A stretch of 45,940 nucleotides of DNA, taken from Sphingobacteriia bacterium (GTDB lineage: Bacteria > Bacteroidota > Bacteroidia > B-17B0 > Aurantibacillaceae). Shown here piece after piece: positions 18,793 through 42,411 of this stretch. Position 1 is the first letter of the stretch. Every line of letters starts with the position of its first letter. The notes under the pieces were generated by a model. The model was given only the letters and a program-made list of their open reading frames with translations, was not told where the DNA came from and ran no database searches. Made by a program: the position numbers and the translations under genes. The DNA lies in NCBI GenBank assembly GCA_009927275.1, contig RFNG01000084.1:1-45940 (forward strand). Reading direction: 5' to 3'.

Positions 18793-21700
18793 TTAGCGGG
18801 TCAAAGTAATTGTTCCTTTAATATCGGTATCTGACTTGCCATCTGCTTTAGTTGCCTGTAATATATAAAAATAGGTTCCGGCTGGAAGTTCTGTACCGGA
18901 AGGTGTTTTTCCATCCCATATAATCTCCTTATCATTTCCAATTTCCGATTTGTTTTGATAAACTATATTACCTGTTCGGTCAAAAATAACGATTTTGAGA
19001 CTTTTCATATTTAACGAACGTATGAAAAACACATCGTTTACACCATCATTATTGGGCGTAAAAATATTAGGCACAGTATAGGAAGATGCAGCGTCTACAA
19101 CTATTATTTTTTGCGTACTGGCCAAACATGAACCTTTACTGGAATATACAGTTATAGTATATGTACCAGGAGAATTATAGGTGGTACTAGTACTGGAATT
19201 ATAACTAAATGTGGCACTACTACCATTACCGTAGTTTATAATTGAGGCGATTTTAGAAGTGTCGCCAGCTCCTGTTGAAGCCAGGTTTTTGATGTCTATT
19301 GTTAGTGGTGCAGTACCTTTTAAGGTGTTTACTGTTAAACTCGCAGTCATATTATTATTAGTTGTTACGTCCCCTTCGGCATTAATAATACATCCTGAAG
19401 TTAAATTTTCAATTAGCACGGGGTAGGTTCCAGGCAAATTGGTAATTAAAAACGGTTTTCCGTTTAAGGTTGAAGTTTCTGCACCAGACACCGGCGTCCA
19501 TGTATATGAAAGCGGGTCTGTAGTAGCACTGGTAACTACCAACGAAATAGTGGCATCTTTTCCACAATCTAAAACAGCTTTTACATCCGTTGATTCAAAT
19601 TGCGGGAAAATAAAGCCATCCTTTATTTCAATTACACCATCCGCCACACAGCCATTATTTAAATCCTTTGCTGTTATTGTATAGGTGCCTGGATATTGGG
19701 CGGTATACGTTGTACTTGCTCCAAGTGAATTGGAAGGCGGTGGGCCCATCCAAACATAACCAATTACAGGCAAGGTTGGCGGCAGCAAGGGCGGTGTATT
19801 TGCTGGTATTTTAGTTTTGCTGTTATTGGTAAGTACTAACGTGGGATTTTTACAAGACAAGGTATTAAAGGGACTCACAATACTGGCTGAAGGTGTAAAT
19901 ATATTTTGGTAAATATTTAAAGTACGTGTGGTAATACACAAATTACTGTTGTCTTTTAAAGCTATAGTATATGTGTTTATTAAAATTGTGTTAGGCTTTG
20001 TAAAATCAGCACTTACCGTTATGGAATTGCTTTGGAGCACATTGGTTTGATAACTCCACTCTGATGTGATGTTAGGTGTTATACTGATGGCCTTGATGTC
20101 AACAGAAGGGGTGTCACATGTTAAAATAATACGCGGTACTAAAAGCGTATCCAAACTAGGTCCGAATTTATTGTCAATTACAGTAAAGGGAAGCTTGGTT
20201 GTACAACCTCCTACATTAGCACGCACAACGGCTGTCCAGGTGCCTGCTGCATTAACGGTAAACTGATTGTTTGGAGATAAATTTCCTGCAGGTAATACAG
20301 ATGAAGTTGGGGGACCCTGAATGGTATAAGTTACAGGGCCGCCACCCGCATTTCCATTAACTAATTGAATGGTAGCAACGCTTTTAGTTGAACAACCCAA
20401 TGTAAAATTTTGAGGACTGACTAAACCAAAAGTTGGAAAAATATCATTTGAACTAACTGTAAATTGTTTAGTAGTTGTACAACCATTATTGCCATTTACA
20501 GAAACTAATGTATACACACCTGGAGAGCCTGGAGGATAAGTGCTTGGCAGGGTTTGACTCACAAAACTTCCACCCAAAGGTGTTAAGATTATATTGGATA
20601 CATTGGTATTAAGATTTGATACATTAACAGTTATATTACTAACTGCCGTATTAGAACAGGTAATGTTTTGAAAGGTGGGTGTTAAAGCCACATTTGGGGT
20701 AGTTGTATTTGAAACAACAACCAAAGTACGCGTTGCCGGACAAAGTGTATTTGGATCCATTCCGGTGATAATATACGTTCCGGGTAATGTAATTTGAGCA
20801 TTTTGGGTAAAGAAATTTGCTGCCCCAGACTGCCAAGTAAATGATAATGCTCCGTTATTGTAATTATAATTAGTTGATGCTAAAGCGTCAAGTGTTGGAC
20901 TGTTACAGGTTAAGCTTGCCGTTTGAAGTAAAGCACTTGTGATATTGTTAACAATATTAAATGTAGGTGTAGGCGGTGCGGCATTAATGCCAACCGTAGC
21001 GCTTACTTTACAACCTAAAGGATCTTGCGCAGAAACTACCACATAATTTGTGGTATTGGGTGCAGCAGGAATGGTATATGTGCCGTTTAAAATCCCCTGG
21101 GCCGTTGTTGTGGCATTTGCTGCTGGCAACCAGGTAACGTTTGAGGGCGTAGATGCGGATCCCGCAGGTGTGACTGAAACCACAGCTTTTGTTGAATTAC
21201 AAGTGGCCTGCTGCACAGAAGCATATAATAATGGAGCTGGTGTAATAGTACTTGCTACAACACGCGTAATAGGCACGCAAGCACCGGGAGGTGACATTAT
21301 GAGTGTATAATTAGCAGAAATATTTGAAACAAAACACTGATTTGTGTAGGAAGGTACCTGATAAGACTGTGGTACATTTGGACCTGCCCAAGAATATGGA
21401 CCAAGGCCCGGCTGCGCACAGATTGTGGCGCCTGCAGCACCACAAGTAGGAACCGTAACCGTGCCTGAGCCTGCAGCATAAGGACTTCCATTGCCATAAA
21501 TGGTCATTGGACCACACTGTGCATCAAAGTACACATATCCAAAATGACCACCGGCGGTACAATCTGAGGTAGTAATTTCGATTTGTACAGTTTGACCTAA
21601 ATAGGGAGTTAAATCAAGTGAACTGATTTGCCATTTATTAAATATTAAACCGGATGTTAAAGTAGCCGGATTTCCGCTTTGAGTTTGTAAAAAGTTAATT

Positions 21701-22571
21701 CCGTTATTGGTGTTTGAACAGGCAGAGCTTAAGGCTGAGGCTGTAAATTGCGGACATGGAATTGCGGTTAAGCTGTTATTTGCTCCCACAGTATATAATG
21801 TAATTTTGAAAGCCCCAGCATCACAACAACCGTGCCCGGTGCTGAATACAGAAATAAAAGCAAACTGGAATACAGCATTTGTTGGCGAAACAGAAAAGGT
21901 TTTTGTTAATCGTGCCATAGAATAATTATTTTGGTTGCTGTTTATGCGAATAAACTTACTTCCAAACATACCTTGGGCAATTTGAGGATTTGCGGCATTA
22001 GCGGCAGCAGGTGCCGGTGTTGAACCAAATACAGAATAAATGGGATAAAAACTACCAATTGTCGGATCAACGGTACCCGTTGGCGCATCTATAAGTTCAC
22101 ACTCTAAAGGTGCATTGGGACAACAGCCAAATTGATTACATGAATTGGATCCAGATTGAAGCGTATGTGAACCACCGCTGACAACCCAACCCTGTATTTG
22201 ATTGGTAGTAGAAATTACGGCTCCTGTAGCAGCTTCAAAATCTTCGTTATCACAACCCGGGAAACCATCATGCGCGCCTCATGAATATACCCTCCTACCC
22301 TGTTGGGTTTGGGATTGTTTTTAGTTAAATTGAATTTATCGTTTATAAATTGGCGTTTTAGCTGATACATGCGCACTTTTAATTCTGAACCTAAAAATTG
22401 TTCTTGGATGGCATTTAATCGGGCTGCAGTTTCATCAAAACCTTGTAATGAATCTTTATCAAATGCATAATATACAAATGGAGGCGGAACAAAATTTAAA
22501 TTTTGGGCCTTAAAGGATCCTGTTATGATAAAGAGGCAAACAGAAAATAGTATTAGAGTTCTTGATTTCAT
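18793..22571 (-). pseudogene. Large CHU_C-type T9SS protein, interrupted by one frameshift as given
   Basis: Two overlapping frames make one protein of about 1259 residues if a single base is restored. The first part, from the ATG at 22571, has signal peptide 'LILFSVCLFIITGSFKAQ' and a helical segment up to 'GGYIHEA'. The second frame is open only from about 22280 and reads 'GFPGCDNEDFEAATG' then 'NQIQGWVVSGG', the conserved N-terminal opening of such proteins. The break lies in or near GCGCGC (22272-22277). The later ATG at 21969 is internal. Then follow lectin-like and PKD/Ig-like repeats and a CHU_C domain ('YTVPNIFTPNNDGVNDVFF ... LPAGTYFYIL'). It may be a real pseudogene or a sequencing error; the rest shows no other stop. 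Paralogous to the downstream gene. Confidence 0.8.
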
Positions 22572-39573: not shown

Positions 39574-40943
39574 ATGAAAATTCAAGCTCCACGTGGTATG
39601 CGTGATTTTACGCCCGCTTTGCTTCGAAAACGCAATTATGTAATTGATATTTTAAAGCAGCAGTTTACGCATTATGGGTTTTTACCCATAGAAACCCCAG
39701 CAATGGAATTGTTAAGCAGTTTAACCGGCAAATACGGCGATGAAGGCGATCAGCTGATGTTTAAGGTTTTAAACAGCCGCATACATGAGCAAAAAGATGC
39801 TGCTGCTATTCAGGCTGCACTGCTAACGCTAGCCACCAGCGGAAAAGACAGTACACTTATAACCGAGCGTGCATTACGCTACGATTTAACCGTTCCGTTT
39901 GCACGCTTTGTTGCCAGCCATCAGCACGAATTGCAGTTTCCATTTAGGCGTTATCAAATACAACCTGTTTGGCGTGCCGACAGACCGCAAAAAGGCCGCT
40001 ATCGTGAATTTTGGCAGTGCGATATTGATAGTATTGGGGCTAAATCACTTTTAAACGAATGTGAGGTTTTACAATTATGCGATGCGGTTTTGAACGCTTA
40101 AAATTACCCGTTACGCTTTACATCAATCATCGGCAATTTTTAAACGGTTTGGCCGAAGCCTTTAATATTAGTCACCGGTTTAACGAATTTATAACATTGT
40201 TGGATGCTTTAGACAAATCCAGTATTTCACAATTAGAAAGTGAAATTACAGCATTGGGATTACGTTCTGAACAAGTTAAATATATTGAACAGCTGCAATT
40301 TGAAATGTCCATAAACGATTCCTTGCCTTTTAATAATGCCACCTTGGAACGTACACGTGCCGAACTGCAGCAGGTTATTTCAAATGTAAACCCCCAATGG
40401 ATTACCCTGCAATGGATGCCCGTTTTAGCTCGTGGCTTACATTATTACACCGGCTGTATATTTGAAGCTAAACCGCAATCCGGCGTCCTGCAAAACAGTA
40501 TTTTGGGAGGCGGCAGATACGATAATTTAGGCGCCCTATTTGGATTGCATGAATTAAGCGGTGTGGGTTTATCTTTTGGACTGGACCGAATATGTGATGT
40601 TTTAGAAGACTTACAACTTTACCCAACTACAGAACTTCAGATTTCAACATCGCGTGTTTTATTTACCCATTTTACTGAAGCGCAACAATGGTACGCCCTA
40701 AATTTGGCTCGTAATTTTAGACAGCATGGTATTGCCTGTGAGGTATATGCCGAAACCGGACGTAAAATAGGTAAACAATTTGATTTTGCTCAAAAACTTG
40801 GCATCCCCTGGGTTTGTGTAATTGGAGAAGACGAATTGCAGTCGGGGCTCCTTACTGTTAAATCTATGGCTGATGGCGTTCAAACCCAGTTAACACCAGA
40901 TGCTTTAATGCACAAATTGCAAAACGAATATGGCAGTTTTTAA
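39574..40943 (+). pseudogene. hisS: Histidyl-tRNA synthetase, split by a -1 frameshift as given
   Basis: Two overlapping frames together make a complete HisRS of about 456 residues. Part 1 (39574-40101) has 'APRGMRDFTP', motif 1, 'RALRYDLTVPFARFVA' and motif 2 'YQIQPVWRADRPQKGRYREFWQCD', and stops at TAA 40099-40101 after 'CDAVLNA'. Part 2 (open from 40065, ATG at 40077) continues 'LKLPVTLYINHRQFL', then histidine-A motif 'RGLHYYTGCIFEA', motif 3 'GVGLSFGLDRI' and the anticodon-binding domain. Adding one T at about 40098 (CTT to CTTT) gives '...LNALKLPVTLY...' with no other change. The ATP site is split between the halves, so neither part alone could work. Since hisS is essential, a sequencing or assembly error or a second copy elsewhere is more likely than true loss. 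Start: ATG at 39574; seven codons further upstream would cover the promoter box. Confidence 0.93.
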
Positions 40944-42411
40944 AATTAATACTACGCAAGCGATACGTATTGAAGACTTAAGCCCCTTGCTTTTGGAAGA
41001 ATCACATGAGATTTATTTTGATGACCTTTCGGCTTTAATACAATGCCGAAGCTATTTAGATACAGATCCCGATATAACATCTAATGCTGTTTATGGTATT
41101 AATACCGGATTTGGCTCCTTATGTCAAATTCAAATTCCCTATCAAGATTTGGAATCTCTGCAATACAACTTAATTCGTAGTCATGCCTGTGGAATGGGCG
41201 CCGCACTTCCAACGGCGCTTGTGCGTTTAATGATCTATTTAAAAATTCGTTCGTTATGCTATGGGTACAGTGGCGTTCAAGAGGCTACTGTAAAATTACT
41301 GGCTGCATTTTTAAAGCATGAAATATACCCGGTAGTATATGAAAAGGGTTCATTGGGAGCGAGTGGTGATCTTGCCCCCTTAGCACATTTATGCCTGCCC
41401 TTAATTGGTGAAGGGCACGTTAATTATAAAGGCAACATACTGGAGGGTGCTGATGCCCTAAAGCGTTTTGGTTTACAGGCTGTTAGGCTTAAAAGCAAAG
41501 AGGGTTTGGCATTACTTAACGGCACACAGTTTATGAGTGCGCTTGCTGTTTTTGGTTGTCTTAGCGCCAAATCGTTGTTTAATTCGGCTAATACCTGTGG
41601 TGCATTGGCTTTGGATGTGTTTTTTGGACACCTTTCGCCTTTTGATGCCGATTTGCATGAGCTGCGTCCCCATCCCGGTGCTGTTGCTGTAGCTAAAAAA
41701 ATTTCAGGGCTTTTACAAGAAAGTGATTTGCAAAAAAAAGAAAGACCTCATGTACAGGACCCCTACTCGTTTCGATGTATGCCCCAAGTACACGGTGCAT
41801 CTTGGGACGCTATTAGTCATGTTTGTGATATTGTAAACCGAGAAATAAATGCTGTAACCGATAATCCGGTGGTATTTTTTAAATCTCATAAAATTTTAAG
41901 TGGCGGCCATTTTCATGGGCAAAGTTTAGCCTTGGGCATGGACTATTTGGCTATAGCATTAGCAGAATTTGCTAACATTTCTGAGCGTCGTACCTATTTG
42001 TTAATCTCGGGCCAACGTCAATTGCCACCCTATTTAATTCAAACTGCCGGATTGCACTCTGGATTTATGATAGCCCAGTATACTGCTGCAAGTATGGTGA
42101 GTCAAAACAAGCAATTATGTACCCCGGCTAGCGTTGACAGCATCGTTAGCAGTAATGGACAAGAAGATCATGTAAGCATGGGTGCTAATGCTGCTACAAA
42201 AATGTTAAAGGTTTTAGAAAATTCACAATTTGTTTTAGGTATTGAATGGCTTTGTGCCTGTCAGGCTTTAGATTTAAGGCGCCCTGTTCAAACTGCTCCG
42301 CCATTGGAAGTATTGCATTCTGCATTTCGTAAGCAGGTACCGGTTATAGCCTCCGACACGGTTTTATCAGACTATATGAAACTAGCCAGTCAATTTATTC
42401 AACATTTGTGA
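40930..42411 (+). CDS. hutH: Histidine ammonia-lyase
   Basis: Deaminates L-histidine to urocanate and ammonia. 493 residues. The MIO prosthetic group forms from A144-S145-G146 ('GSLGASGDLAPLAHL'). Other family sites: Y55 in 'VYGINTGFGSL', H85 in 'LIRSHACGMG', 'LLNGTQFMSAL', 'VTDNPVVF' and 'NGQEDHVSMGANAATK'. The SH at 84-85 and the QEDHVSM segment fit histidine rather than tyrosine or phenylalanine lyases, which typically differ at both places. It overlaps the end of hisS by 14 bp and the next gene by 4 bp (GTGA). The rest of the hut pathway is not in the window. Confidence 0.92.
   Translation: MAVFKINTTQAIRIEDLSPLLLEESHEIYFDDLSALIQCRSYLDTDPDITSNAVYGINTGFGSLCQIQIPYQDLESLQYNLIRSHACGMGAALPTALVRLMIYLKIRSLCYGYSGVQEATVKLLAAFLKHEIYPVVYEKGSLGASGDLAPLAHLCLPLIGEGHVNYKGNILEGADALKRFGLQAVRLKSKEGLALLNGTQFMSALAVFGCLSAKSLFNSANTCGALALDVFFGHLSPFDADLHELRPHPGAVAVAKKISGLLQESDLQKKERPHVQDPYSFRCMPQVHGASWDAISHVCDIVNREINAVTDNPVVFFKSHKILSGGHFHGQSLALGMDYLAIALAEFANISERRTYLLISGQRQLPPYLIQTAGLHSGFMIAQYTAASMVSQNKQLCTPASVDSIVSSNGQEDHVSMGANAATKMLKVLENSQFVLGIEWLCACQALDLRRPVQTAPPLEVLHSAFRKQVPVIASDTVLSDYMKLASQFIQHL

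Follow-up and report, generated by a model that had tools for sequence, protein, structure and literature searches.

A histidyl-tRNA synthetase gene lying in two frames in a draft Bacteroidota assembly is best explained by a one-base error in the consensus

The histidyl-tRNA synthetase gene (hisS) of the window, by which we mean the whole stretch of 45,940 nucleotides analysed here, lies in two reading frames, 39574-40101 and 40077-40943, both on the plus strand, and is a single base short of being one continuous gene. With high confidence, we attribute this break to a one-base indel error in the consensus of a draft assembly that is itself fragmented, and not to biology. The draft consensus of this uncultured Bacteroidota lineage would have picked up the error in hisS; in the organism itself, hisS is very probably continuous at this place, is followed by hutH, and works as an ordinary histidyl-tRNA synthetase (HisRS). 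The features concerned are:

39574..40101, plus strand: N-terminal part of hisS, from the ATG at 39574 to the TAA at 40099-40101 that ends the frame (TIGR00442 positions 1-148, E 5.4e-49, 167.3 bits)
40077..40943, plus strand: C-terminal part of hisS, in the -1 frame (TIGR00442 positions 147-404, E 3.8e-49, 167.8 bits)
40084..40099, plus strand: likeliest interval of the frame break, from a profile scan of switch codons and a junction alignment; one base short relative to the codon count of the relatives
40930..42411, plus strand: hutH, histidine ammonia-lyase (PRK09367 598.6 bits, hutH 578.7 bits, both above cut-off)

Like the bacterial histidyl-tRNA synthetases described by TIGR00442, the two halves jointly cover profile positions 1-404 of 406, in order, and stand at the usual site by hutH; unlike them, they occupy two frames and each scores under the family cut-off of 286.75 bits, so that an intact hisS in a continuous frame is not what the assembly contains. 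Over their full length, however, both halves match the family, and alignment to the HisRS of G001, a genome of the same genus in a single contig, gave one frame event and zero stops, that is, none of the further damage by which a pseudogene would be recognised. The -1 frame is open only from the stop at 40062 onward, and its first ATG, at 40077, is probably not a real start. An earlier note on this DNA had described a single-base frameshift falling between 40065 and the TAA at 40101, and both the nature of the split and these bounds agree with our results. Within the bounds, a switch-codon profile built from 47 relative HisRS rows from 46 genomes (G002 twice) was best satisfied by a codon starting at 40087 (33.0 bits), with the codons starting at 40084, 40090, 40093 and 40096 within 2.3 bits of it, and a frame-tolerant alignment to one relative placed the break at 40085. 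The suggestion that one T at about 40098 restores the frame is thus possible in its position, which the profile scan does not prefer, and goes too far in naming the base, whose identity cannot be named from the sequence alone.

As the earlier note had it, the break falls between motif 2 and motif 3, names that we take to apply to HisRS here; the motifs were placed by direct reading. That HisRS functions in this organism as two separately made chains, as a few other synthetases are known to do, could draw on the overlap between the ATG of the downstream frame and the end of the upstream one. We consider it extremely improbable: the cut lies inside the catalytic core, exactly one base is lacking where the halves meet, neither new ends nor a linker are present, and the breaks in atpA and leuS are of the same kind.

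A programmed -1 frameshift on the ribosome, perhaps with similar recoding in other genes, would also yield a full HisRS. It would suit two halves with full family matches lying exactly one base apart, as well as the one-base breaks in several other core genes, and in the dnaX-type case, as it figures in parts of the GeneTack survey (PMC3711429), a -1 change likewise joins the two frames. In contrast to that case, hisS here has no slip heptamer, downstream structure or conservation: (i) direct reading of 40063-40101 found no canonical X XXY YYZ site in the zero frame, as already noted from the sequence, the nearest being G GTT TTR, which occurs twice; (ii) the RNA of 40092-40171 folds no better than shuffled sequences (z 0.44, 131 of 200 shuffles at least as stable); (iii) the frame change is conserved in none of 56 relative loci; and (iv) the breaks elsewhere in the assembly go in both directions and occur at dissimilar sequences. 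One table row of the same survey gives frame transitions for a cluster labelled 'tRNA synthetase', with the mark PV (PMC3711429). Among the titles and abstract openings of the literature searched neither a programmed frameshift in HisRS nor a naturally split HisRS stood out. Programmed frameshifting is, in our judgement, very unlikely.

The comparison with relatives, which the earlier note had proposed, was made by frame-tolerant alignment of the G001 HisRS to 59 relative loci (some genomes being represented twice) and to the window. At a threshold of at least 60% aligned, 57 loci were kept, 56 of relatives and the window, and the window alone had a frame event; the loci left out (L058, L059 and L060) come from G022 and G013. 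No frame event was seen in hisS at any of 80 named loci, which are the best-scoring ones and hence biased toward intact genes; many of these 80, which make up the alignment of relatives' HisRS, are MAGs of uncultured Bacteroidota. In a first family search of 60 genomes, including the window's own (G000), 56 had a hisS above the cut-off, the other four being G000, G013 (one piece), G022 (three pieces) and G021 (none found); G021 also lacked the queried GAPDH and may therefore simply lack DNA. The N half searched across the family matched in 77 of 86 other genomes, with an open frame of at least 349 aa in 76 of the 77; the exception, in G022, is a piece of 209 aa that runs into the contig end. 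For the C half, searches of genome_contigs and viral_contigs gave no confirmed relatives.

The earlier note had left three readings open, a very recent mutation, a base-call error or compensation by a second hisS. The last of these was sought and not found: searching the whole assembly (165 contigs, rated 99.3% complete) with TIGR00442 gave no second hisS. Besides the two hisS pieces, the search returned two weak matches, both in one 648-aa frame that, from its resemblance, looks like ThrRS, and the N half of hisS as query matched only itself up to E 10. One could still suppose that the true hisS lies on DNA absent from the assembly and that the copy in the window is a decaying second gene, since 165 contigs leave gaps and since the HisRS of the window is more diverged from its genus than the genus members are among themselves (N half 58% against 81% identity, C half 38% against 66%; 34 genus rows, G002 twice). 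This we hold to be most improbable, given the completeness of 99.3%, a site that is the place of hisS beside hutH in relatives, and the divergence of the neighbouring hutH as well (54% to the genus, 74% within it; 34 genus rows), which points to a lineage that is fast generally. Decay of hisS, raised by the 38% identity of its C half to the genus, was accordingly rejected, as hutH reveals an equal speed throughout the lineage; judging from these genes, the lineage of the window is diverged in general. The highest identity observed for the N half within the family is about 63%.

What favours an error in the consensus is that the same assembly has one-base breaks in other conserved genes, with atpA and leuS split too. 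In a forward test, 801 ORFs from 1.2 Mb of G001, our main control, which is a one-contig genome and not a draft, were compared with 815,854 bases of the window's assembly, the window included. Frame-tolerant alignment gave 165 places, none of which contained an in-frame stop; 28 were dropped for falling under 35% identity (one of them with a frame event), and the 137 left (51,683 aligned residues) had 14 frame events in 13 places. Under a strict rule (one base short or long, with at least 9 identical residues of 18-20 on either side) there remained 11 breaks, in 10 of the 137 conserved genes, or about one per 14 kb of aligned coding sequence. In the reverse test, 613 ORFs were taken from the window's assembly and aligned to G001, which yielded 172 places, of which 25 were dropped for falling under 35% (one with an event); the remaining 147 had 5 events in 4 places, and none passed the strict rule. 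Four of these 5 events stem from ORFs on contig C26 that breaks have already cut short; an in-frame stop was present in 5 of the 147 places, two of them from the same break-cut ORFs. These fixed rules and the frame-tolerant alignment supersede an earlier frame-change screen (166 places, 12 candidates).

The strict events, named by the NCBIfam matches of their G001 relatives, affect paaZ, atpA, ribD, an amino-acid permease, a TolC-family protein, a PfkB-type sugar kinase, a T9SS-sorted protein, one protein without a match, and a molybdopterin/Fe-S oxidoreductase subunit, which has two events, together with a nearby protein of 410 aa. The sole atpA found is in two frames, one piece alone scoring above the cut-off, and its break (L106 about 11334, that is, contig C1 of the assembly about 51,334) is located in what we take to be the ATP-binding loop. 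For ribD, one piece from profile position 22 scores above the cut-off, and the flank supporting the break on its N-terminal side is short. Five large universal genes were searched for as an independent check: rpoB, rpoC, valS and ileS are each one open frame, whereas leuS, which lies outside the window (contig C91:3311-6077, plus strand), is in three frames, and an intact copy was not found in the assembly. Two of the leuS pieces contain a TAA and may perhaps be alignments that extend beyond a break.

HisRS and LeuRS are indispensable to a living bacterium, which makes indel errors in the consensus the best explanation of these splits. Decay, moreover, should also yield in-frame stops, and their absence from the 137 genes argues against it. 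A real and very recent one-base deletion of hisS, carried by some of the population sampled while the remainder keeps the gene intact, would fit the undamaged flanks and the full family matches of both halves; it is nonetheless unlikely, since it gives no account of why atpA, leuS and further conserved genes are broken as well, and translation requires HisRS. Alternatively, the bacterium might tolerate or programme single-base frameshifts genome-wide, in hisS, atpA and leuS among other genes, much as the ciliate Euplotes does in extent. Were the breaks real, it would be remarkable for a bacterium to decode so many core genes across frameshifts, and we give the idea very little credence. Of the readings in the earlier note, it is therefore the error that is strongly favoured: the break is missing from the hisS of relatives, and similar breaks occur in the same assembly at an unusual rate (10/137 against 0/147). 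The breaks elsewhere in the assembly would likewise be products of sequencing or assembly that the cell's own DNA lacks.

Three observations count against a consensus error, and the 0 of 147 comes from a one-contig control and not from a draft. (i) The earlier note placed such an error in a T/A homopolymer, where errors of this kind typically, though not necessarily, concentrate. When homopolymer slippage was tested as the cause of the breaks, 8 of 12 events lay near a run of at least 3 (6.5 expected, p 0.29) and 5 of 12 near a run of at least 4 (p 0.066), an enrichment that is not significant. (ii) rpoB, rpoC, valS and ileS are each in one frame, an outcome compatible with one break in every 14 kb. 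(iii) hisS itself, which is outside the genome-wide count because the hisS of G001 is not in the reference stretches, narrowly fails the strict rule, with 9 and 8 identical residues of 20 beside its break in comparison with G001, yet each half matches the family at E of about 1e-49. In favour of an error, the 11 strict breaks run both ways, 8 lacking a base and 3 having one too many, and no common motif was seen at them by eye.

Errors of this kind have precedents. In the GeneTack survey, single homologue-validated frame breaks are expected to be sequencing errors (PMC3711429), and the abstract on Kastor describes how error correction lowered the share of pseudogenes in example long-read assemblies from 23.3 to 5.6% (PMC12007338). 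Our assembly resembles drafts with indel errors (PMC12007338, PMC3711429) in having single-base breaks in otherwise intact conserved genes of many functions, breaks that are absent in relatives. It differs from the Kastor case, whose abstract deals with long-read assemblies (PMC12007338), in that the homopolymer signal here is not significant. A caution follows for the use of such data: despite the completeness rating of 99.3%, one-base breaks affect 10 of the 137 conserved genes tested in this assembly, and apparent pseudogenes or missing essential genes in it are unsafe to read as biology without the reads.

The surroundings of hisS are ordinary. At 39574-42411 of the window the gene for a synthetase adjoins the gene for a histidine-degrading enzyme, as it does in 41 of 50 relative loci, where a hutH-like match lies beside hisS (6 of the 41 being outside the genus, and one of the six weak); the site of hisS in the window is therefore the usual one. 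When hutH was aligned in the same frame-tolerant manner, 41 of 60 loci passed, with one event, in L060, one residue from an alignment edge or gap. No tRNA genes were found in the window. Possible frame changes in hisS are also seen in two of the loci left out above, both from other members of the genus, L059 (G022) at about 3048 and L060 (G013) at about 2943; they lie elsewhere in the gene and at most about 450 bases from a contig end, and the one in L059 has almost zero flank.

Other breaks deserve mention for their positions. In L112 (contig C26), a span of less than 6 kb has three one-base breaks, at about 3033, 4919 and 8677, in the oxidoreductase subunit and the nearby gene, and one-base breaks may be clustered by contig. 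The window itself has a second, probable frame break at 22250-22310 (minus strand). The protein affected, toward its N terminus, is a large CHU_C (type IX secretion) one with its main ORF at 18793-21969; the break lies in a region with 41% identity to the reference and does not belong to the strict set. Finally, the assembly of the window amounts to 2.29 Mb, below most of the listed members of the genus, and both its hisS and its hutH show clearly greater divergence than the copies in those members.
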